The notes below the pieces were generated by a model. The model was given only the letters and a program-made list of their open reading frames with translations. It was not told the DNA's origin and did no database searches. This document shows positions 9,421 to 20,831 of a stretch of DNA of 60,750 nt, in pieces. Numbering within the stretch: the first letter of the stretch is position 1; each line of letters starts with the position of its first letter. The position numbers and the translations under genes are program-made. Source of the stretch: Desulfobacterales bacterium (lineage in GTDB: Bacteria > Desulfobacterota > Desulfobacteria > Desulfobacterales > JANQIE01); the NCBI GenBank assembly GCA_028282295.1, contig JANQIE010000260.1, positions 1-60,750 of the forward strand, read 5' to 3'.

Positions 9421-9444
9421 AGCGCCGAGGTGTTCCTTGGCGCT
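9421..9444 (+). terminator. Intercistronic hairpin between Cache protein and MCP genes
   Basis: AGCGCCGAGG (9421-9430) pairs with CCTTGGCGCT (9435-9444) around a four-base loop, with one G-T pair. No strong T-run follows, so it could be a leaky terminator or an mRNA-stabilising hairpin that lowers MCP expression relative to the secreted sensor protein. Confidence 0.5.
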
Positions 9445-9475
9445 TGAAGCATTTTCGCCAGGAGTAAAAAATAAA

Positions 9476-11092
9476 ATGATTTTCTTTCGAAAATTGAAAT
9501 TGGCCGGTAAGTTGTTTGGCGGTTTTGCGTTGATGATCGTGTTCATGGTCATCATCGGCATCACCGGCTATCAGAGTGTCGATCATATAAATGCGGATCT
9601 CGACGAAATTTTTACCGTGCGGCTGCCCGGCATCGATTATCTGATCGAAGCCGACCGGGATTTGCAACAACTGTTGGTGGCCGAACGGTCAATGATTTTC
9701 GCCAACGTCAAATCCGATACATTTAAAACTCTTCTTGCGGATTATGAAAAAAATCTGGAGCAAGCCAACCAGCGGTGGGAAAAATTTAAAACACTGGTCT
9801 CATCCGCGCAGGAGCGCAAACTAGTGGCCGCTTATGATGCCGCACGCGAAGAATGGATCCAGCTATCGCGGCAGGTCGTCGAAGGCCGCAAAGCCGATAC
9901 CCGCGCCGGACGTCGTTTGGCGCTCGATCTTTCGCTGGGACAAGCCAACGTCAAATTTGAACAGATGCGCGATTCGCTGGATAAACTCACCGAGCTGAAT
10001 CTGACCCTTGCCGAAAACGAACATATTGACGCGGCCCAAACCTACCGCCGGACCGTGCTGATCCTGACGATCGTCACTGTGCTGGGTGTCATCATGGGCG
10101 GCCTGATTGCCTGGGCCATTGCCCGCAGTGTATCCGGCCCCTTGAAAAAAGCGATCCTTGGTTTAAGCGAAGGGGCGGATCAAGTCAGCAGTGCTTCCAG
10201 CCAGCTATCAACATCCAGCCAGGCCCAGGCTGAAGGCGCCTCCGAGCAAGCCGCTTCACTGGAAGAGACATCGTCATCCTTGGAAGAGATCGCCTCCATG
10301 ACCCAGCAAAATGCCGACAATGCGGCTGAAGCCGACCAGTTGATGAAAACAGCCAACCAGGTTGTCGTCCAAGCCAACGCCGCCATGCAGGAGCTAACCC
10401 AGTCGATGGAAGCTATCTCGCAGTCGAGTTCCGAGACCTCGCAAATTATCAAGACCATCGACGAAATCGCGTTTCAGACCAATCTGCTGGCGCTCAACGC
10501 CGCCGTGGAAGCCGCTCGTGCCGGCGAAGCCGGGGCCGGTTTTGCCGTGGTCGCCGATGAAGTGCGCAATCTGGCCATGCGGGCCGCTGAAGCCGCGCGT
10601 TCAACATCCGGTTTGATCGAAGGGACCACCGCAAAAGTTCAATCCGGCACCGATTTGGTCACCCGCACCAACACTGCGTTCGCCGAAGTCGCCACCAGCG
10701 CCGATAAATCAGCCAAATTGGTCGATGAAATTGCTTCGGCATCCAGAGAGCAGGCAGAAGGAATCAAACAACTGGCAAGCACGGTCAGCCAAATGGACCG
10801 CGTGACCCAGCAAAATGCCGCCAATGCCGAAGAAGCTGCCTCCGCCTCGGCGGAAATGAATTCGCTGTCGGTGCAACTAAAAAAACATGTCCACCGGTTG
10901 CAAACAATTATCACTAACGATAATAACAGCGGCACGCAGATGCTATCGGGCACCGCGGTCGCCAACGCCTCCCAAACCGCCATCGCAGAACCTGCAAAAC
11001 CGCGGTTGCCGGCCCCAAACGGTCCGACGACCAGGCAGGCAAACCCCGAAGACGTCATACCCATGCATGATGAGGACTTTGCCGATTTTTAG
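9476..11092 (+). CDS. Methyl-accepting chemotaxis protein, 4HB type
   Basis: A 538-residue transmembrane receptor. The first membrane segment is near residues 12-32. A periplasmic four-helix-bundle-like region is followed by a second segment ([17 protein letters not shown]), a HAMP region (ISGPLKK-like VSGPLKKA) and a long signalling domain with the hairpin [20 protein letters not shown]. The C-terminus ends EDFADF, which fits the aromatic-x-x-aromatic pentapeptide used to tether CheR. I chose the ATG at 9476 with GGAG upstream; the frame is open to 9437. It follows the secreted Cache protein gene, suggesting a shared stimulus. It lacks its own Cache domain. Confidence 0.93.
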
Positions 11093-11124
11093 TTCGTTGT
11101 AAATTTTTGGTGACGCCCAGATAA

Positions 11125-11162
11125 CATCGGCGGTTGAAGGTAGTTAACTTCAACCGCCGATG
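11125..11162 (+). terminator. Hairpin after the MCP gene
   Basis: CATCGGCGGTTGAAG (11125-11139) and CTTCAACCGCCGATG (11148-11162) form a perfect 15-bp stem with an eight-base loop. The following bases (CTTATTGG) are only weakly T-rich, so intrinsic termination is likely but not textbook. Confidence 0.65.
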
Positions 11163-11282
11163 CTTATTGGAATTTCCGATAAAAATAATGTTGTGCATCA
11201 CAATTTTCTATTGGACATATCAAATTTAGTTATAGTATTCAGGTGTTTCTATATGTAAATGTTAAGAGGTCTTCCATGATTC

Positions 11283-11425
11283 ATGATTTTGGCTTTACTT
11301 GAAGGCGTTTAGCCTTCTAACCGGGTTTGCTAGACGAAGCCGTGTGCCAAAATCATATCCAACCTGACATAACCGAATCGTCCTTGGGCTGTCCGTTGCC
11401 TTTGCACCTGCGATAGCCCACAGCC
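11283..11425 (+). promoter_or_regulatory. Structured leader upstream of the ModA-like redox module
   Basis: The 426-bp gap between the MCP and binding-protein genes holds two folded parts. Part one: ATGATTTTGGC (11283-11293) pairs perfectly with GCCAAAATCAT (11346-11356), enclosing the hairpin GAAGGC/GCCTTC (11301-11306/11312-11317) and a weaker CGG-TT/AA-CCG hairpin, giving a three-way junction. Part two: TGGGCT (11385-11390) can pair with AGCCCA (11415-11420), or the overlapping GGCTGT (11387-11392) with ACAGCC (11420-11425); these are mutually exclusive. It lies 94 bp before the start codon. I cannot match it to a known riboswitch, including the Moco class. It could instead be a palindromic repeat. 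Confidence 0.4.
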
Positions 11426-11518
11426 GAACACTCCCGGATAAAAATACATTTTTGAAATAGGCATCATCTCGGTTCGCATACCGAAATGACCGCAGGCGAT
11501 TACTATTGAAGGGGGTGT

Positions 11519-12388
11519 ATGGATCGAAGCAACAATCAACATAAAGCGGATTACAACCGCAGGACATTTCTTAAAACAGCAACCGGCTTGGCCGTCGGGG
11601 CTGCTTTGCCTACTGCGGCATCGGCGTCTGAAAAATTTGGCCAACATATGCTTCAAGTTTGGTCCTGCGGGGGGTTGGCAGAGGCGTTCATTCCGGCCCA
11701 CCAACTTTACGAGGAGAAAACCGGCGTCAAGATTGCCTATACCGGCGCATTTGCGGCAGCTTTGGGAAAATCTTTACTGGGAAGCGCGACCACCGAAGTC
11801 TTTGCAGGCAGGGTTCTCGGCCTGGCGAAAAAACTTCACGACGCCGGCAAAATGGAGTACTTCAAGCCGCTGTGTTTCACCAGCTATGTGATGGTCACGC
11901 CGAAAGGTAACCCATCGGGTATTTCAGATATCCGCGATCTGGCCAGGCCCGGTATCAAAGTAATTCTGGCGCCTGAATCGTCTCCTCCCGGCGGCAAGGC
12001 TGTATCGGGCCTGTTGAAAAAGGCCGGCGTGCTGGAACAAGCCATGAAAAACGCCGTGATAAAGGGAAGCTGCGTGCAGCGCACCATGCAAGACCTGGTG
12101 AACGGCAAAGGCGATGTGTCCGTGGTGGAAAAACGCCTGACGCGGATGCCCCAGTTCAAAGGCAAAGCGGACATTATCCCCATTGACTCGGAACACTTTC
12201 CGCCCCCGCCACTGACATTTACTATCGGTGTGATGACAACTGCCAAAGACCGAGCATTGGCAGATCATTATGTAAATTTCGTTCTTTCCGGGGAAGGGCA
12301 GCATTTTTTTGAGTCCGCCGGATTCATACCGGCCATATCCAAAGAAGGTGAACGATTGGCAAAAAAGTTCGGGGTGAGAGATGGCTGA
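11519..12388 (+). CDS. Tat-exported ModA-like substrate-binding protein
   Basis: A 289-residue periplasmic binding protein of the molybdate/tungstate (SBP_bac_11) kind. A twin-arginine signal is visible (NRRTFLKTATGLAVGAA, arginines 14-15), with probable cleavage after ASA near residue 36. The fold shows GGLAEAF, YTGAFAAALGKSLL, LARPGIKVILAPE and a C-terminal VNFVLSGEGQHFFESAGFIP. Tat export suggests that it folds or binds a cofactor in the cytoplasm. No ABC permease or ATPase gene is nearby. The genes after it encode membrane redox and sulfur-handling proteins, so it may present a ligand to that module rather than to a transporter (inference). The start is ATG after GAAGGGGGTGT. Its end overlaps the next gene by 8 bp. 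Confidence 0.8.
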   Translation: MDRSNNQHKADYNRRTFLKTATGLAVGAALPTAASASEKFGQHMLQVWSCGGLAEAFIPAHQLYEEKTGVKIAYTGAFAAALGKSLLGSATTEVFAGRVLGLAKKLHDAGKMEYFKPLCFTSYVMVTPKGNPSGISDIRDLARPGIKVILAPESSPPGGKAVSGLLKKAGVLEQAMKNAVIKGSCVQRTMQDLVNGKGDVSVVEKRLTRMPQFKGKADIIPIDSEHFPPPPLTFTIGVMTTAKDRALADHYVNFVLSGEGQHFFESAGFIPAISKEGERLAKKFGVRDG

Positions 12389-13196
12389 AGCCACAGGCCC
12401 ACTATCCGTTGCGTCGAATTCGTCAGCAAAGGAAAAACCGAGGACCACATATCTAAAATGGTGGCGGCGGACCACCCAGCTTGCCGGCATGGCCATCCTC
12501 GGCCAATGGTCTTTTTACGGTATTTTCCGATGCCCATTTATTGTACCCTATGTGAGCTGCCAGAGCTGTCCTGTCATTACATGTCACGGAAGGTTGCTAA
12601 CTTTATTTTGGGGCTTCTGGTTACTGCTTTTATTGTCCGCTCTTTTATTCGGCCGGGCATTTTGCGGTTGGGCCTGTCCCGGTGGGTTTGTGAACCAGTT
12701 GTTCGGCATGGCTGCGCCGCTGAAGCTGCGCGTTCAAAGTGCCGTCACCTGGATAACGCCCTTTTTTAAGTACCTCGGATTGGCTCTGGCTCTTTACGTT
12801 TGGCTGCTTTGGGGGCAACCGCGGGAAGCTGTTCCGATCCGTACCGGTGAATTCTTTTCATCGGTGGCACTGACCTTCGAACATGCAAACCTGATATGGC
12901 TCGCAAGAACATGCATTGTTCTCGGTTTACTGCTGTCGGGTCTATTTATCGCCAACGCATGGTGCCGGTTTGCCTGCCCCACCGGCGGCGTGTTGGAATC
13001 CTTAAAGCGCTGGTCGCTGTTCAAGGTATACAAAACCGAAGCATGTAACGATTGTGACAAGTGCCTTAAAATTTGCGAGATGGGAACACGGCCGGCAGAA
13101 TCCAACTGCACGAACTGCTGCGACTGCCTGACAGTATGTCCGCAGGACGCCATAAAAACCGGCCCCTCTCGAGTGATACCGAACAACTGCGGGTGA
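12381..13196 (+). CDS. NapH-like membrane polyferredoxin
   Basis: A 271-residue inner-membrane iron-sulfur protein. After a polar N-terminus it has about four to five hydrophobic segments. Paired CxxxCP motifs follow two of them (FCGWACPGG and WCRFACPTGG), the signature of NapH/NosR/CcoG-type proteins. The C-terminal domain holds two clusters of ferredoxin cysteines (CNDCDKCLKIC and CTNCCDCLTVCP). An additional CQSCPVITC near the N-terminal end is unusual. It probably carries electrons between the membrane pool and a periplasmic or cytoplasmic partner. It overlaps the upstream binding-protein gene by 8 bp, and GGGGTGAGAG is its ribosome site, so the two are likely made together. Confidence 0.85.
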   Translation: MAEATGPLSVASNSSAKEKPRTTYLKWWRRTTQLAGMAILGQWSFYGIFRCPFIVPYVSCQSCPVITCHGRLLTLFWGFWLLLLLSALLFGRAFCGWACPGGFVNQLFGMAAPLKLRVQSAVTWITPFFKYLGLALALYVWLLWGQPREAVPIRTGEFFSSVALTFEHANLIWLARTCIVLGLLLSGLFIANAWCRFACPTGGVLESLKRWSLFKVYKTEACNDCDKCLKICEMGTRPAESNCTNCCDCLTVCPQDAIKTGPSRVIPNNCG

Positions 13197-13229
13197 GAAT
13201 TGAAGCGTATTTGGAGATGCTGTGATCCA

Positions 13230-13727
13230 ATGAAAACCATGGACTGGATATATAGGTTCTGCCGATGGATACTGGGCTTGATCTTCATCTATGCCGGCAG
13301 CACCAAGTTGCTGGCGCCGGAAATCTTCGCCGTCTTGATTGACGCATACGGCATTGTTCCCGCGGGACTGCTCATGCCGGTAGCGATTGGGTTGCCGCTT
13401 CTGGAAGTAATCGCCGGTATCGGACTGCTGCTTGATATCCGGGGAAGCCTGGCGCTGGTTACCGGCTTGCTGGTGCTTTTTGTGGCGGTGCTTGGTTACG
13501 GTATTTGGATGGGACTGGATGTGGACTGCGGCTGCTTCGGCCCCGAAGACCCGGAGGCCGAGGCGTTTCACGGCCTGAGACTGTCTCTGTATCGGGATCT
13601 GGCCATGATGGCCGGCGTCTTTTTTATATATGGTTGGCGCCGGTATCGTGCCACCCAGCCAACAGGTGTCATGGTTATTGTGAATCAACTATTCAATAAA
13701 AGGAGAAAAAAAGATGCGTATGGGTAA
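13230..13727 (+). CDS. MauE/DoxX-family membrane protein
   Basis: A 165-residue protein with four hydrophobic helices. It has the MauE/DoxX features ILGLIFIYAGSTKLL at the first helix and DCGCFGPED after the third. The DCGCFG loop is typical of MauE-type proteins thought to help form disulfides or handle thiols in the periplasm. I chose the ATG at 13230. A TTG at 13200 in frame would add ten Cys-containing residues (KRIWRCCDP) and sits four bases after the upstream stop, so it remains possible. The stop overlaps the start of the rhodanese gene. Context with polyferredoxin and rhodanese suggests a thiol/disulfide or sulfane-sulfur relay (inference). Confidence 0.82.
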   Translation: MKTMDWIYRFCRWILGLIFIYAGSTKLLAPEIFAVLIDAYGIVPAGLLMPVAIGLPLLEVIAGIGLLLDIRGSLALVTGLLVLFVAVLGYGIWMGLDVDCGCFGPEDPEAEAFHGLRLSLYRDLAMMAGVFFIYGWRRYRATQPTGVMVIVNQLFNKRRKKDAYG

Positions 13728-14250
13728 ATCTGTATTGAAAATGTTTCTAGTTGCGGGCCTGGTGGCCGCGATGACAACGCCTGCCGGAGCTTTTCTGGGC
13801 AACAAGTTTGAAAGGGAAGTGGAAAAAGAAGCAGGTGCGGTCAAACTGGTCCGTGAAATTCAGCGTGGCGGCTACGATGTGGTGGCCACCGAAGAACTCA
13901 AACAATGGATCAATGCCGGCAAACAGATGCTGATCGTGGATACCATGCCCTATGAAGACAGCTACAAAAAGCAGCATGTGCCGGGGGCTGTTCAGTTTCT
14001 GCTGCCCATACCGGACATGAAAGAATGGGACACCAAACAGACCGCGGGCAAGACCTTGGATGATTTTAAGAAACTGCTGGGCAGTGATAAGGACAGATTG
14101 ATCGTGATTTACTGCGGTTTCGTTAAATGCACACGCAGCCACAACGGTGCCGCCTGGGCCGTCAAGCTCGGCTACAAGAACGTCTATCGCTATCCTGGCG
14201 GGATTTTTGCCTGGAAAGGGGCGGATTTTCCCATTGAAACGGCGCAATAG
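13714..14250 (+). CDS. Exported rhodanese-like sulfurtransferase
   Basis: A 178-residue protein with a signal peptide (cleavage near PAGAF) and one rhodanese domain. The domain shows MLIVDTMPYEDSYKKQHVPGA and the active-site stretch IYCGFVKCTRS, with the catalytic Cys expected at YCG. The loop carries a second cysteine (CGFVKC), which could form a disulfide or a second persulfide site. It ends NVYRYPGGIFAWKGADFP, typical of the family. GGAG ten bases before the ATG sits within the end of the MauE/DoxX gene, which it overlaps by 14 bp. A periplasmic rhodanese beside a membrane polyferredoxin suggests work on sulfane sulfur or a related chalcogen (inference). Confidence 0.87.
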   Translation: MRMGKSVLKMFLVAGLVAAMTTPAGAFLGNKFEREVEKEAGAVKLVREIQRGGYDVVATEELKQWINAGKQMLIVDTMPYEDSYKKQHVPGAVQFLLPIPDMKEWDTKQTAGKTLDDFKKLLGSDKDRLIVIYCGFVKCTRSHNGAAWAVKLGYKNVYRYPGGIFAWKGADFPIETAQ

Positions 14251-14269
14251 GCAACCGGGTGGGGTCTTG

Positions 14270-14842
14270 ATGCCAAAGTGGTGCAACGTTCATGGTCCTC
14301 GGGCTGAGGCGTTAATTGCACAGATTAAAAAACGGGCTGAAAATCTGTATCAAACCCGGCAGTTGCTGTGCGCTGAAGCGGTTGTAGTGACCTTGAACAA
14401 GGCTATTAACGGCGGCCTGAGTGACGCTCAGGCCGTTGCTGTTGCGGCTCCGTTCAGCATCGCGCTGGGAGACAGCGGCTGCATTTGCGGTGCTTTGAGT
14501 GGCGCCGTTTTGGCGTGCGGACTGTTTGTGGGAAACGATCAACCCTACCCTCACCGTAAACGCTTGCGCAAAAGTGCCCGGCAACTTCATGATGCGTTTA
14601 AAGCCGCCAATGGCGCGACTTGCTGCAGAGTACTTTCCTGGAATGTTCGCAATGATCGACAGGCCCGCTTCCAGCAGTGTGGACACTTGACGGCAGGCGC
14701 TGCGGAAATGGCCGCGAGGTTGATACTGTATCAAAGGCCTGAACTCATCCGATCCGCTGAATGTGGCTTTCTCCATAAAATGGACACCAGAATCGGTGCC
14801 ATGATGACACGGATGCTTCGAATTGCTCGCCTGAAAACATAA
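14270..14842 (+). CDS. C_GCAxxG_C_C family redox protein
   Basis: A 190-residue cytoplasmic protein of the C_GCAxxG_C_C type, named for its cysteine pattern. Visible elements are LLCAEAVVVTL, GDSGCICGALSGAVLACGL, CCRVLSW and QCGHLTAGAAEMAA. The function of this family is not settled; members are often near redox or radical enzymes, and the cysteines suggest a metal or iron-sulfur site. I chose the ATG at 14270 preceded by GGTGGGG; the frame is open back to 14147, inside the rhodanese gene. It is the last gene of the five-gene module, and a family A repeat follows it. Confidence 0.78.
   Translation: MPKWCNVHGPRAEALIAQIKKRAENLYQTRQLLCAEAVVVTLNKAINGGLSDAQAVAVAAPFSIALGDSGCICGALSGAVLACGLFVGNDQPYPHRKRLRKSARQLHDAFKAANGATCCRVLSWNVRNDRQARFQQCGHLTAGAAEMAARLILYQRPELIRSAECGFLHKMDTRIGAMMTRMLRIARLKT

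Positions 14843-14968: not shown

Positions 14969-14971
<3 letters not shown>
14875..14971. repeat. Family A repeat at the cheB stop codon
   Basis: The centre (CCGCAGGCATAGCAGGCTAT, then TTTTAAAAAATGCG) and right arm (CCGGATGGGCAC) match the other copies, with the arm partly changed (AAAGTGGCCACTTCCGG). The outer end, TTGCTAA, contains the reverse complement of the cheB TAG stop (14969-14971). It separates two convergent genes. Confidence 0.75.
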
Positions 14972-16048
<1,077 letters not shown>

Positions 16049-16117
16049 TTACCGTATAAGCGGCAAACCGTTTGCGGCTCAACCTTGTGCGGCCGCCTGT
16101 TGGAATAAATACCAGGG

Positions 16118-16585
16118 TCACGCGAACACACACCGCAAGGCCATCACACCCTCGATGGTTTCGATGATGATGACAATCTGGTCCTTGCCGCCGGGCACTT
16201 CGGCCTGCATCAGGTTTTGGGCGTCGGTTATCGTCGGAATGCCCAAATCGTAAACGGTTTCCCGGTCCAGGGTGCTGAAGGTGTTGCCGCCCAGCATATT
16301 CAGAATTTCCATCAGTGTGCCGTCCGCGTGTTCGGCGGCGATATTCTTCTGCTCTTCACCTAAAAAGCTTTCGGTGGTCGACAGTAACAAATCTGCGGGT
16401 ATGTATAGTTCAAAGTAACCGTTCAGCTTGCCGTTGAATTCAAGTTTACAGGCCTTCAAATCGGTAGTGGACGGTTTGTAAGCATCCAGCTTGTTGTCGT
16501 CGGACAGCTCCAGCGACATGAACAACATGGTTTCAAAGACTTCAGAAATCGAAGTCCTCATCGCCGTCTTCAACGTCTCCTTCAT
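16118..16585 (-). CDS. CheX-like chemotaxis phosphatase
   Basis: A 155-residue protein of the CheX/CheC fold. The conserved helix has an E-x2-N-x3-GN pattern (MEILNMLGGNTFS), where the Glu and Asn side chains act in dephosphorylating CheY-P. Only one such helix is present, as in CheX. The start is uncertain: the ATG at 16585 has GGAGAAG upstream but overlaps the cheY gene by 44 bp, and an ATG at 16561 is possible. The overlap with a CheY-type gene suggests that this pair works together. Confidence 0.8.
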   Translation of the reverse strand: MKETLKTAMRTSISEVFETMLFMSLELSDDNKLDAYKPSTTDLKACKLEFNGKLNGYFELYIPADLLLSTTESFLGEEQKNIAAEHADGTLMEILNMLGGNTFSTLDRETVYDLGIPTITDAQNLMQAEVPGGKDQIVIIIETIEGVMALRCVFA

Positions 16586-16967
16586 CTTCCGCTTCTCCGA
16601 GAATTTGGGTTAATTTTTGACGGATCTCTTCCGGTGTAAACGGCTTCTTGACATAATCGACCGCGCCTTTTTCCATGAATTCATCCACTTTGGCACGGCT
16701 GCCTTCGGTGGTCACCACCAATACCGGAATCGCTTTGAGCACTTCATCTTTCTTCATCTCTTCGATGAGCTGCAGCCCGTTCATCTTCGGCATGTTGTAG
16801 TCGGTAATGACAAGGTCGAGCCATTCAGACTCCATTTGCTCAAGGGCTTCGCGGCCGTTGCTCGCCTCCATGAAATCCGTGGTGCCGTAACCGGAAGCTT
16901 TGATTGTTTTTTTGATGACCGCCCGCATGGGGAGCGAGTCGTCCACAACTAAAATCTTATAGGCCAT
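16542..16967 (-). CDS. CheY-like response regulator with acidic tail
   Basis: A 141-residue single receiver domain. It shows ILVVDDS, the phosphoacceptor Asp in DLVITDYNMPKMNG, the Thr of VVTTEG and the Lys of YVKKPFTPEE. After the domain comes an acidic tail of about 16 residues ending DEDFDF, which is longer than in a plain CheY and resembles the ends of the two MCPs here. It sits in the che operon and overlaps the cheX gene, so it is likely the motor-binding or a phosphate-sink regulator. Confidence 0.92.
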   Translation of the reverse strand: MAYKILVVDDSLPMRAVIKKTIKASGYGTTDFMEASNGREALEQMESEWLDLVITDYNMPKMNGLQLIEEMKKDEVLKAIPVLVVTTEGSRAKVDEFMEKGAVDYVKKPFTPEEIRQKLTQILGEAEDEGDVEDGDEDFDF

Positions 16968-17077
16968 TGTTACCCCCGTCCTTGTGACACGAAGATAGGC
17001 GTGCGATTGAAAGTCATTGCCCTGTCAATATATTACCGGAAAAATTGAAAGCTACTCCCTAAAAAAAGAGATCACTT

Positions 17078-17926
17078 TTACACATTTTGAATCAGTTCTT
17101 CCACACTCTTCATCTTATCGCCGAATCCGGCGATGATTTCCTGCAAATCCAGCTCGGTGATTTCCATGTTCTTCAGGATGTCGCGGTAAAAGCGATAGGC
17201 CAGACCGTCGGAACCGCCGCCGATGCCGAGCATCATGCAGACCATGTCGGCCAGATAAACGATGGCGGTTGCAAGATCGCCGTGCGCGGATTCGTCTTGC
17301 ATGTGATGGTTCTGGATGATGTAGGTCATTTTATCGCTGAATTTCCACTTTTTGGCGATAAAACCGCCCAGTTCGGCATGATTGATGCCGATCACCGCTT
17401 TTTCCGCCTCCATAAAGCTATACCCTTTTTCCTCAACCAGTTTTTCGATCTTGGAATAGGAATCGGCCACAAAACGGTCCAGCACCGACTTGCCGATATC
17501 CTTGACCAGGGCCGCGGTAAAAATCAACTGTTTTTGCGCAACACCTTTTTTTTCGGCCAGTTCGCGGGCGATCAGGGCGCAGGATACGGCTTGACGCCAT
17601 AAATCGCCTTCGTTGTGACCGTATCCTTGCTGTTGTTTTTTCAGGTTTTCCGAGCCGCCTTTTAAAATCACCAGATCGACGATCTGTTCCAGCCCCACCA
17701 GGGTAACGGCCTCCTGAACAGACTCTACCGTGCGCGGCAGGCCGAAGTAGGCTGAGTTGCAGGCTTTAAGCAGGTTGGCGGTGACCATGGGATCATAGGT
17801 GATGACATCGGCGATTTCACCCATATTGCTGTTGGGATCTTCGGCCAGTCGGATGACCTGCTGGGCGATCTGAGGAATCGGTTTCAAACTGTCGATTTCC
17901 TTGATTAGCTCTTTGATGTTGCTCAT
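17078..17926 (-). CDS. HDOD domain signalling protein
   Basis: A 282-residue protein that is nearly all one HDOD domain (LKPIPQIAQQVIRLAEDPNS, then ITYDPMVTANLLKACNSAYFG, and later NHAELGGFIAKKW). HDOD domains look like HD hydrolases without all metal ligands and act in signalling; the exact role here is unknown. The start is the ATG at 17926 with GGAG eight bases upstream. It overlaps the cheD stop by four bases (ATGA), so translation is coupled. Deltaproteobacterial che operons often include such a gene. Confidence 0.9.
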   Translation of the reverse strand: MSNIKELIKEIDSLKPIPQIAQQVIRLAEDPNSNMGEIADVITYDPMVTANLLKACNSAYFGLPRTVESVQEAVTLVGLEQIVDLVILKGGSENLKKQQQGYGHNEGDLWRQAVSCALIARELAEKKGVAQKQLIFTAALVKDIGKSVLDRFVADSYSKIEKLVEEKGYSFMEAEKAVIGINHAELGGFIAKKWKFSDKMTYIIQNHHMQDESAHGDLATAIVYLADMVCMMLGIGGGSDGLAYRFYRDILKNMEITELDLQEIIAGFGDKMKSVEELIQNV

Positions 17927-18402
17927 ATGGTTTTCTCCTCTTTGCCCGAAACCTTTAGATTCACTTTTCCGGTGGCGACGTCGATTTTAACCGTGCGATT
18001 GCAGTTACCGCCTACATCTTCATATTCAACCATAACGTTGTTTTTAAAGAACAGCTTGCGCATGGCCATGTGGTTGCGTTTACCGATGTTGAAAAATCCC
18101 TGTTGGTCGAGGATTTGGGCACCCCCGGCAACGATGACGCGCATGCGTTGTTTTTTGGCGCCGAATTTATAGGCTTCCTTGAACAGGCGCGGTATCCCGG
18201 TGTCGGCGAACATGAAGGGATTTTTTTCCGCCTTGGTCTTATCCAGGCTCGATTCCGGCAGCATGTAATGCAGCAATCCGGCAACTTTCACGATCGGATC
18301 ATAAACCGCGATTCCGATGCATGATCCGAGCGAGTAGGTGATGACCGTCGCTTTCGGATCATTGCTCACTTTCATATCTGAAACGCCAACAATAAGTTTC
18401 AC
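17923..18402 (-). CDS. cheD: Chemoreceptor glutamine deamidase CheD
   Basis: A 159-residue cytoplasmic deamidase acting on receptor glutamines. Catalytic elements are visible: the Cys in YSLGSCIGIAVYD, the His in GLLHYMLPES and the later GGAQILDQQGFFNIGKRN. It uses GTG as start at 18402 with AAGGAACAG upstream. It precedes the HDOD gene with a four-base overlap. CheD usually pairs with CheC; here only a CheX-like protein is present, so its partner may differ. Confidence 0.94.
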   Translation of the reverse strand: MKLIVGVSDMKVSNDPKATVITYSLGSCIGIAVYDPIVKVAGLLHYMLPESSLDKTKAEKNPFMFADTGIPRLFKEAYKFGAKKQRMRVIVAGGAQILDQQGFFNIGKRNHMAMRKLFFKNNVMVEYEDVGGNCNRTVKIDVATGKVNLKVSGKEEKTI

Positions 18403-18470
18403 GTTTTTCTGTTCCTTACCTTTTCGCGTTAGGCTTTGCGTGCCGACTAATTTTTGCTCCCGGACTTATT

Positions 18471-20672
18471 TTAAGCGGCGGCCAATTCATAGAGGCCGGC
18501 AATATCGAGTATCAAGCCGACCCTGCCGTCGCCCAAAATGGCCCCGCCAGCCAATCCTTTGGTATTTTTCAATGCTTCGCCCAAACTTTTGATGACGATC
18601 TCTTCTTGCCCCAGCAACTCATCGATCAATATGGCCCGTTGCTTTTCCTTGTTTTCTACCACCACGACCAGTCCGTCCCACGGGTTTTCCGCATCGCCCG
18701 ACATGGCGAACATCTTGTCCAGGCGAACCAGGGGGATCAGGTTCCCACGCGCCATCACCATCTCGCCCTTGCCTTCCACGGTAAAGTACTCTTCCTTGGT
18801 CGGTTTGAAGGACTCCACGATCGCCATGGTGGGCAGAATATAACGCTCACGGCCCAGGCGCACCACCATGCCCTCAATGATGGCCAGGGTCAGCGGCAAA
18901 CTGATCACCACGGTGGTGCCCTGGCCGGGTGTCGATCTGACATCCAAACGGCCGCGCAGTTTTTCGATACCCCGCTTGACCACGTCCATACCGACACCGC
19001 GCCCGGAGATGTCGGTCACTTCGGCGGCGGTGGAGAAGCCCGGCTCAAAAATCAAGTTATAGGTTTCCGCATCGGTCAGGTTGGCATCCGCGTCGATCAA
19101 GCCGCTTGATTGCGCTTTGGCAATGATCTTGTCCTTGTTCAGGCCGCGCCCGTCATCGGCGATTTCGATGACGATGTTGCCGCCTTTGTGGTAGGCTCTA
19201 AGTTGGACAGTGCCTTTGGCCGGTTTGTCCGCCTCGACGCGTTCGTCGGGGTGCTCCAGACCGTGATCGCAGGCATTGCGAATCATATGAACCATCGGCT
19301 CATATAACTCATCGACCACATTGCGGTCGATTTCGGTGTCTTCACCAAACATCTCAAGGGACACCTCCTTGCCGGATGATCGGGCCAGATCCCTTACCAG
19401 ACGCACCATTTTCTGGAAGGTGGCCTTGATCGGCACCATCCGCATGGACATGGCGATCCGTTGCAGGCTCGAAACGATCTGCGAAAGTTGACTTAAATTC
19501 TGATCGAGTTTTTGATCGGCCATTTTTGAAATTTTATCATTTTGGCGCAACATCGACTGCGAGATCACCAACTCACCGGTCAGGTCGATCAGATTATCGA
19601 GTTTGTTGGTGTCGACCTTGACATGCAGATCCTGCACGCGTTTGCGTTTCTTCTGGTCCCGCAGGGCGGAAATGACGTCGCGGGATTCGGCGGCTTTTTC
19701 TTCCACCAGAATCTGACCCAGCTTTTTACTACCGTCGGTTTGCTTTTGTTTTTCAAGACCCTTTTCGATTTCCTGCTCGCTGACGGTGCCTTTTTCCAAC
19801 AGGATCTCGCCCAGGGGCTTGTAGCCTTCCTTGGCGGCCTTGCCGGTTTTTTCGATTTGTGCGATCAAAGGGTCGACATTGATGCCGCCTTCCAGTATCA
19901 CTTCTTTATCGGGGCCGGCGCCGATGGCCTTTTCCACGCTGCCGACCAGCCGTTTAAGCACATCGACCGATTCGAGAATGATATCGGTGATGGTGTCGTC
20001 GATATGGATTTCACCCTGGCGGGCGCTATCAAGCAGGTTTTCGGTGCTGTGGCCCAGTCGGTTAATTTTCGCCAGATTTAAAAACCCGGAGACCCCTTTA
20101 ATGGTATGAAACGGCCGGAAAATGGAGTCGATGGTCTCCTTGTTACCCGGATCCTGTTCCAAATCGACCAGATTGACCTCGATGCTTTCCAGATTTTCGA
20201 GTGATTCAACCACAAAATCACTCATGATCTGAATATCTTCCTCGGTCAGGACCACCGGCGCTTCCTCGGCTGAAACAGCCGGACCGTCGGAGTCTGTGTC
20301 GGACGCGGCGGTTTGATCACTATCGGATTCAGCCTCTTCAACGACGCCCATTCGTTCCAGAACATGGGTGATAGAGCCGCTAAACGCACCTTCGTTGGAC
20401 AGGGCGTGGCAAACCTCCTGCAAAGCCTGCACCCCTTCTTCAACCGGACCGACATCATCGTTTTCATTCATCACCAGCTTCTCGATATACCCGGACAAGC
20501 CCTTGGTCAGGTTCTCCAACGCTTCATTGTTCAACTCGGTGGCGCAGGCTTTTAATTGGGTAACGGCGTTCAACAGCTCGCCCAGGGCGGGAATATCGCC
20601 CGGCTCCAGTGTTACCACCTGCAACGCAATTTGTTGCAATTTCTCGTTTAGCTGTTTTATCGTTTCATCCAT
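18471..20672 (-). CDS. cheA: Chemotaxis histidine kinase CheA with unusual N-terminal and middle regions
   Basis: A 733-residue kinase that phosphorylates CheY and CheB. An N-terminal segment of about 145 residues precedes the phosphotransfer domain, whose phosphorylated His is His189 (RPFHTIKG). Between that domain and the dimerisation helices lies a region (about 283-345) with two short repeats, LGEILLEKGTVS and LGQILVEEKA, resembling the N-terminal modules of type II secretion/MshE ATPases. Then come the dimerisation helices, the ATPase domain (IRNACDHGLEHP, DDGRGLN, GRGVGMDVVKRG) and a CheW-like domain. The start is the ATG at 20672; a TTG at 20684 is open. It heads the operon. No separate cheW gene was found in the window. 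Confidence 0.94.
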   Translation of the reverse strand: MDETIKQLNEKLQQIALQVVTLEPGDIPALGELLNAVTQLKACATELNNEALENLTKGLSGYIEKLVMNENDDVGPVEEGVQALQEVCHALSNEGAFSGSITHVLERMGVVEEAESDSDQTAASDTDSDGPAVSAEEAPVVLTEEDIQIMSDFVVESLENLESIEVNLVDLEQDPGNKETIDSIFRPFHTIKGVSGFLNLAKINRLGHSTENLLDSARQGEIHIDDTITDIILESVDVLKRLVGSVEKAIGAGPDKEVILEGGINVDPLIAQIEKTGKAAKEGYKPLGEILLEKGTVSEQEIEKGLEKQKQTDGSKKLGQILVEEKAAESRDVISALRDQKKRKRVQDLHVKVDTNKLDNLIDLTGELVISQSMLRQNDKISKMADQKLDQNLSQLSQIVSSLQRIAMSMRMVPIKATFQKMVRLVRDLARSSGKEVSLEMFGEDTEIDRNVVDELYEPMVHMIRNACDHGLEHPDERVEADKPAKGTVQLRAYHKGGNIVIEIADDGRGLNKDKIIAKAQSSGLIDADANLTDAETYNLIFEPGFSTAAEVTDISGRGVGMDVVKRGIEKLRGRLDVRSTPGQGTTVVISLPLTLAIIEGMVVRLGRERYILPTMAIVESFKPTKEEYFTVEGKGEMVMARGNLIPLVRLDKMFAMSGDAENPWDGLVVVVENKEKQRAILIDELLGQEEIVIKSLGEALKNTKGLAGGAILGDGRVGLILDIAGLYELAAA

Positions 20673-20831
20673 GGTTTTTTCCAAAAAAGTGTGAGACTGG
20701 ATAATTTGTGGTCCGGCAGATATTTAGGTCATCGACAACCCAACCGGCAGCTCGTCTTTGGTTTGAATTATGCCTAACAATCGGCAGCCCGGAAAAAGAA
20801 CTTAAATTTATTAGCGAAAGGTAGAAATCAT

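Follow-up and report, generated by a model that had tools for sequence, protein, structure and literature searches.

Gene content of the locus

The window, by which we mean the whole 60,750-nucleotide stretch of Desulfobacterales DNA analyzed here, contains a set of five ORFs on the forward strand (positions 11519 to 14842). All five were confirmed, and their products were assigned to families using Pfam and NCBIfam. The first gene (11519 to 12388) encodes a Tat-exported ModA-fold protein of 289 amino acids, here called SBP, with invariant residues C50, C119, C185, E204, and R206. It matches Pfam family SBP_bac_11 (E = 5e-44), and its Tat motif scores slightly below the Pfam cut-off. Overlapping the SBP gene by 8 bp is a gene (12381 to 13196) for a NapH/MauN-like membrane polyferredoxin of 271 amino acids, in which the Fer4_5 match is above and the NapH/MauN match below the cut-off. 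With 57.5 bits against the NapH family (cut-off, 213), this protein is a relative of the NapH equivalog and not a member of it. The third gene (13230 to 13727) encodes a 165-residue MauE/DoxX membrane protein with the motif DCGCFG (PF07291; E = 3e-26); its start is the ATG at 13230, and an alternative TTG at 13200 is possible. It is followed, with a 14-bp overlap and the sequence aaggag upstream of the ATG, by a gene (13714 to 14250) encoding an exported rhodanese of 178 amino acids (PF00581; E = 6e-19) with a CxxxxC (CGFVKC) loop. The last gene (14270 to 14842) encodes a C_GCAxxG_C_C redox protein of 190 amino acids (E = 2e-25), which scores 64.5 bits against TIGR01909, over the NCBIfam cut-off of 47.4; an alternative, longer GTG start at 14147 would run into the rhodanese gene.

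This gene content agrees with a preliminary description of the same DNA as regards the five ORFs, their overlaps and families, the two cysteines in the rhodanese loop, and the redox- and chalcogen-related look of the set. The start given there (11283) lies in untranslated sequence before the first gene, which starts at 11519. In the window, the SBP gene has no adjacent gene for an ABC permease or ATPase.

The set is flanked upstream by a chemotaxis receptor gene (9437 to 11092) and downstream, on the opposite strand, by a cluster of chemotaxis genes (14969 to 20684). Between the receptor gene and the SBP gene there is a perfect-looking inverted repeat (11114 to 11174), probably a terminator, which weakly matched an unrelated miRNA model on both strands. 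A riboswitch search of this region of the window gave no match at the gathering score, and its three weak matches were at chance level. Methylamine dehydrogenase maturation, in which MauE and MauN-like proteins also occur, was set aside, as the locus is without mau structural genes.

Two separable modules and their distribution

The five genes form two modules: module A, with the genes for SBP and the NapH-like protein, and module B, with those for MauE, the rhodanese, and the C_GCAxxG protein. A scan of genome contigs with the single SBP sequence gave no match, and an alignment-based scan, using a profile built from five SBPs, gave 55 loci in named genomes, one of which (L064) is a match of 27 residues only. 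These loci span Thermodesulfobacteriota, Sporomusa and other Negativicutes, Campylobacter concisus, and Phycisphaerae, with one Acidobacteriota MAG and one Chitinivibrionales MAG. In all related loci long enough to show the next gene, the SBP gene is directly followed by a NapH-like gene. SBP is thus not part of an ABC transporter, as had been proposed, and it does not cluster with an ordinary modABC transporter. Several SsuA-type ABC transporter gene sets lie just upstream of SBP-NapH-NifB in Sporomusa (L040, 457 to 9885; L048, 3239 to 9753), and the ABC genes near these loci and L049 have SsuA-type binding proteins of their own.

Module B is a conserved unit of its own, usually found without SBP. 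Among 20 rhodanese loci from relatives, MauE precedes the rhodanese in 16, and C_GCAxxG is the third gene in 7. The rhodanese is present in 22 of 96 relatives, just 3 of which (G000, G046, and G081) also have SBP. Only the window and three Desulfocapsa/Desulfobulbaceae loci (L035, L042, and L044) join MauE-rhodanese to SBP-NapH. The latter carry a four-gene subset (MauE, rhodanese, SBP, and NapH) in an order that differs from that in the window, so that the modules have been joined at least twice, in different gene orders and different SBP clades. More distant rhodaneses occur near SBP in L052 and L063. The idea that the five genes act as one module therefore stands only in part: the ORF set is real, and it divides into two separable modules, the partner of module A being a NifB that is encoded elsewhere in this genome. 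Similarly, the five families proved to be rarely linked as a full set, which was seen in the window only, whereas SBP-NapH and module B are each recurrent.

Near module A or the module B rhodanese, genes for a double-cubane-cluster reductase and its activator also recur (L006, L011, L022, L031, L036, L063, L090, L138, L151, and L152); the reductase assignment was tested in L022 (NF040772).

The ModA-like cleft of SBP

The best fold matches of SBP are ModA proteins (Foldseek, E = 1e-17; TM score to 4kd5 of 0.90 by target length). Its score against the ModA family TIGR01256 is 36.8 bits, under the cut-off of 62.5, and the SBP copy in L043 is also below it (40.9 bits). The RR pair, W48-S49-C50-G-G, C119, C185, E204, and R206 are kept in all 55 SBP sequences, whereas E. 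coli ModA has no cysteines.

The residues were mapped from HMMER and MAFFT alignments, as hhalign of the SBP profile against E. coli ModA was weak (probability, 6.8). At the positions that we take to be molybdate contacts of ModA, Ser12, Ser39, and Tyr170 align with Gly52, Ala79, and Glu204 of SBP, which weakens the earlier idea of an oxyanion receptor. C50 aligns two residues before the Ser12 position, and C185 is inserted next to the Val152 position. By alignment, two of the three invariant cysteines are thus predicted to lie at the site where ModA holds molybdate. The three cysteines would be compatible with an [8Fe-9S-C] or related cluster.

A NifB homologue next to module A

NifB is the enzyme that assembles the [8Fe-9S-C] core of the nitrogenase cofactor. 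A radical SAM gene is located directly after NapH or directly before SBP in 35 loci. Its product matches NifB structures in the PDB (E = 1e-66) and a related radical SAM protein (E = 4e-75), and it scores 276 to 316 bits against TIGR01290, under the cut-off of 344, over about the first 290 of 441 model positions. Judged from these similarities, the gene encodes a NifB homologue, and NifB is the conserved third gene of module A in other genomes.

In all SBP-linked NifB proteins, the SAM-cluster cysteines are retained, as are the residues that align with Cys30, Cys129, His43, and Cys274/277, for which cluster-ligand roles in NifB have been described (PMC6053413, PMC7145814). Group I, encoded after NapH, retains Cys63, whereas group II, encoded before SBP, lacks this K1 cysteine and has extra Cys, so that the product of group II may differ. 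In the NifB tree, the SBP-linked proteins form two lineages separate from the nitrogenase NifBs, which suggests that two NifB lineages were recruited to SBP. The SBP tree requires at least six changes of the state in which NifB is not adjacent. In L039 (5823 to 7604), L047 (9110 to 10831), and L062 (9146 to 10846), the NifB-like and SBP frames run on without an in-frame stop, giving continuous frames of 594, 574, and 567 amino acids, respectively; these could represent NifB-like-SBP fusions, or an internal codon could serve as the SBP start.

Genomes without SBP provided a control: three of them contain short NifB paralogues (L153, L154, and L155) whose neighbors are nitrogenase-like H/D/K genes, different in appearance from the usual nif clusters, which indicates that NifB tends to adjoin its client. 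In nitrogenase-free genomes, SBP is the obvious candidate for that client.

Co-occurrence of SBP and NifB

A NifB homologue is present in 49 of 50 SBP-positive genomes, and the sole exception is a 2.2-Mb MAG that has nitrogenase genes. In the class to which the window belongs, NifB is found in 105 of 389 genomes, namely, in 16 of 18 with SBP versus 89 of 371 without it (Fisher's exact test, P = 3e-8), and in both NifB-less SBP-positive genomes of the class a contig ends less than 200 bp from SBP. Genes for nitrogenase components (PF00148) are present in 34 of the 50 SBP-positive genomes and absent from 16. A NifB-like gene adjoins SBP in 15 of these 16; in the remaining one, the SBP gene lies at the start of one contig (L033) and a NifB-like gene at the end of another (L091), and adjacency across these facing ends is likely. 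The other loci with no adjacent NifB-like gene are all in PF00148-positive genomes (P = 7e-4, counting the split case as adjacent). Both P values are indicative only, the genomes being related and many of them MAGs, from a sampling that is phylogenetically uneven and MAG rich.

Where NifB is not adjacent, then, the genome has nitrogenase genes from which it could be borrowed. The window genome fits this rule: its single NifB lies in a full nif cluster and not beside SBP. Most diazotrophs of the class are without SBP. A functional dependence of SBP-NapH on NifB is, in our judgment, very probable, and SBP itself may well bear a NifB-derived cluster. The literature search, which covered open-access papers, gave no description of an SBP-NapH-NifB system and no paper in which NifB was connected with SelD or with a binding protein that is exported.

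Selenium genes near both modules

Genes for selenium utilization recur as neighbors of each module independently, although most such neighborhoods are confined to a minority of loci. The YedE proteins encoded near module A are of the seleno-YedE type (TIGR04112; 448 and 487 bits, cut-off of 200), with 42 and 40 bits against TsuA, and YedF, SelD, and SelB were also identified as neighbors with NCBIfam. Rfam placed a tRNA-Sec between YedE and SelD in L049. YedE is present in 23 of the 50 SBP-positive genomes and lies less than 10 kb from SBP in 7 of the 23, where, by our estimate for genomes of 2 to 6 Mb with one or two copies each, far less than one case would be expected by chance. SelD lies less than 10 kb from SBP in L026, L031, L043, and L049, and in 5 of the 20 rhodanese loci (L138, L139, L142, L143, and L149) it immediately follows module B.

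The presence of SelD inside the class is uninformative because the gene is near-universal there. Outside the class, SelD was over the cut-off in 14 of 17 SBP-positive genomes; the other three, including L047, whose record is a chromosome, are without a clear SelD, showing that selenium is not universal for SBP.

The best NCBIfam match of the window rhodanese was TsoB, of which positions 21 to 159 of 572 were matched (102 versus 805 bits). Its CxxxxC motif corresponds to UxxxxU of the selenoprotein.

Proposed function and alternatives

From the gene content, the invariant residues, the NifB linkage with its complementation pattern, and the selenium gene neighborhoods, we infer that SBP is a periplasmic redox protein carrying a NifB cluster and fed by NapH, probably for selenium acquisition; as a whole, this reading has slightly less than an even chance. 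In the cytoplasm, a dedicated NifB or one borrowed from nitrogenase would make a carbide-type iron-sulfur cluster, which SBP would receive in its ModA-like cleft, the candidate ligands being C50 and C185 and perhaps also C119 and E204. The Tat pathway would then export the loaded protein in the folded state, and the NapH-like membrane protein would trade electrons with it, presumably as the donor. In the periplasm, loaded SBP could serve as a redox or chalcogen-binding center, most likely capturing and reducing selenium (or sulfane) species. MauE, the rhodanese, and the C_GCAxxG protein would relay the chalcogen via the rhodanese CxxxxC site toward SelD, and in other genomes YedE and YedF may occupy the place of this module. 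There are precedents in the L-clusters of the MCR activation complex (PMC12176620) and in selenium exchange into the belt sites of FeMo-co (PMC4755756). The most specific form of the proposal, that bacteria in several phyla use a ModA-fold protein to export a nitrogenase-type [8Fe-9S-C] cluster for NapH-wired periplasmic capture and reduction of selenium for selenoprotein synthesis, is somewhat unlikely as it stands.

The ModA fold of SBP, as well as the formate dehydrogenase, MobA, or MoeA genes near L024, L038, L051, L052, L055, L061, and L090, would also agree with a protein that still binds periplasmic molybdate or tungstate and serves Mo/W enzymes such as formate dehydrogenase as a receptor or metallochaperone. 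We consider this quite improbable, however: SBP falls under the ModA cut-off, its aligned oxyanion contacts are Gly, Ala, and Glu, three invariant cysteines have been gained, the gene that follows is NapH and never modB, and the need for NifB in nitrogenase-free genomes would be left unexplained. That sulfur is handled and not selenium, with sulfite, thiosulfate, or polysulfide captured, sulfane sulfur or reducing power supplied, and NifB providing a redox cluster of SBP, is unlikely. The rhodanese, YedF, and YedE families serve sulfur too, the DCGCFG and CxxxxC motifs are thiol motifs, and three SBP-positive genomes have no clear SelD, but the neighboring YedE is of the selenium-associated type, and SelD, SelB, and tRNA-Sec are selenium-specific neighbors.

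SBP-NapH could instead assist the maturation of NifB or nitrogenase, for instance by supplying a precursor, and not itself be a cluster-bearing client. Many SBP-positive genomes are indeed diazotrophic (the 34 with PF00148), and SBP-NapH lies less than 8 kb from a nitrogenase NifB in L019 and L027. Yet the 16 genomes without nitrogenase components have kept NifB beside SBP (seen in 15, with one split), and the class diazotrophs are mostly without SBP, which leaves such a role very unlikely. There is equally little probability that modules A and B are chance neighbors with unrelated jobs. The five-gene set was seen here only, and few rhodanese-bearing relatives have SBP; against this, the genes overlap in the window, the modules were joined more than once, and each of them independently has selenium gene neighbors.

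If SBP is indeed a client of NifB, an exported protein of unrelated fold draws on NifB chemistry, and nitrogenase-type clusters extend past the relatives of nitrogenase and the MCR activation complex into another compartment. This would also account for the NifB gene in organisms without nitrogenase components, e.g., Campylobacter concisus. High-affinity selenium acquisition was called unidentified in a 2022 review (PMC9312934), and the proposed system would be a testable candidate for it.

Comparison with known systems

SBP shares its fold and its periplasmic export with ModA of the ModABC transporter, but it differs in having a Tat motif, three invariant cysteines, and altered ligand positions, and its partners are NapH and NifB instead of an adjacent ModBC. 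As in the NapH/MauN/NosR-type systems, the polyferredoxin of module A is paired with a periplasmic redox partner, which here is a putative one of the ModA fold; NapG, NapC, and NapA are lacking. SelD, YedE, and YedF (FdhTU), known from selenium utilization, are recurrent neighbors of both modules, neither of which is described among the selenium genes in two earlier papers (PMC5322559, PMC9312934). The window rhodanese resembles the rhodanese part of TsoB, a rhodanese/DsbD-like selenoprotein, in its paired chalcogen residues, but it has Cys in place of Sec and no DsbD-like part. Finally, as with the known NifB clients, namely, NifEN/nitrogenase and the MCR activation complex (PMC12176620), a NifB gene lies beside a candidate cluster recipient in which cysteine ligands are available. 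SBP differs from those clients in its fold, which is unrelated to theirs, and in its Tat export signal, and in 16 genomes it occurs in the absence of NifEN.
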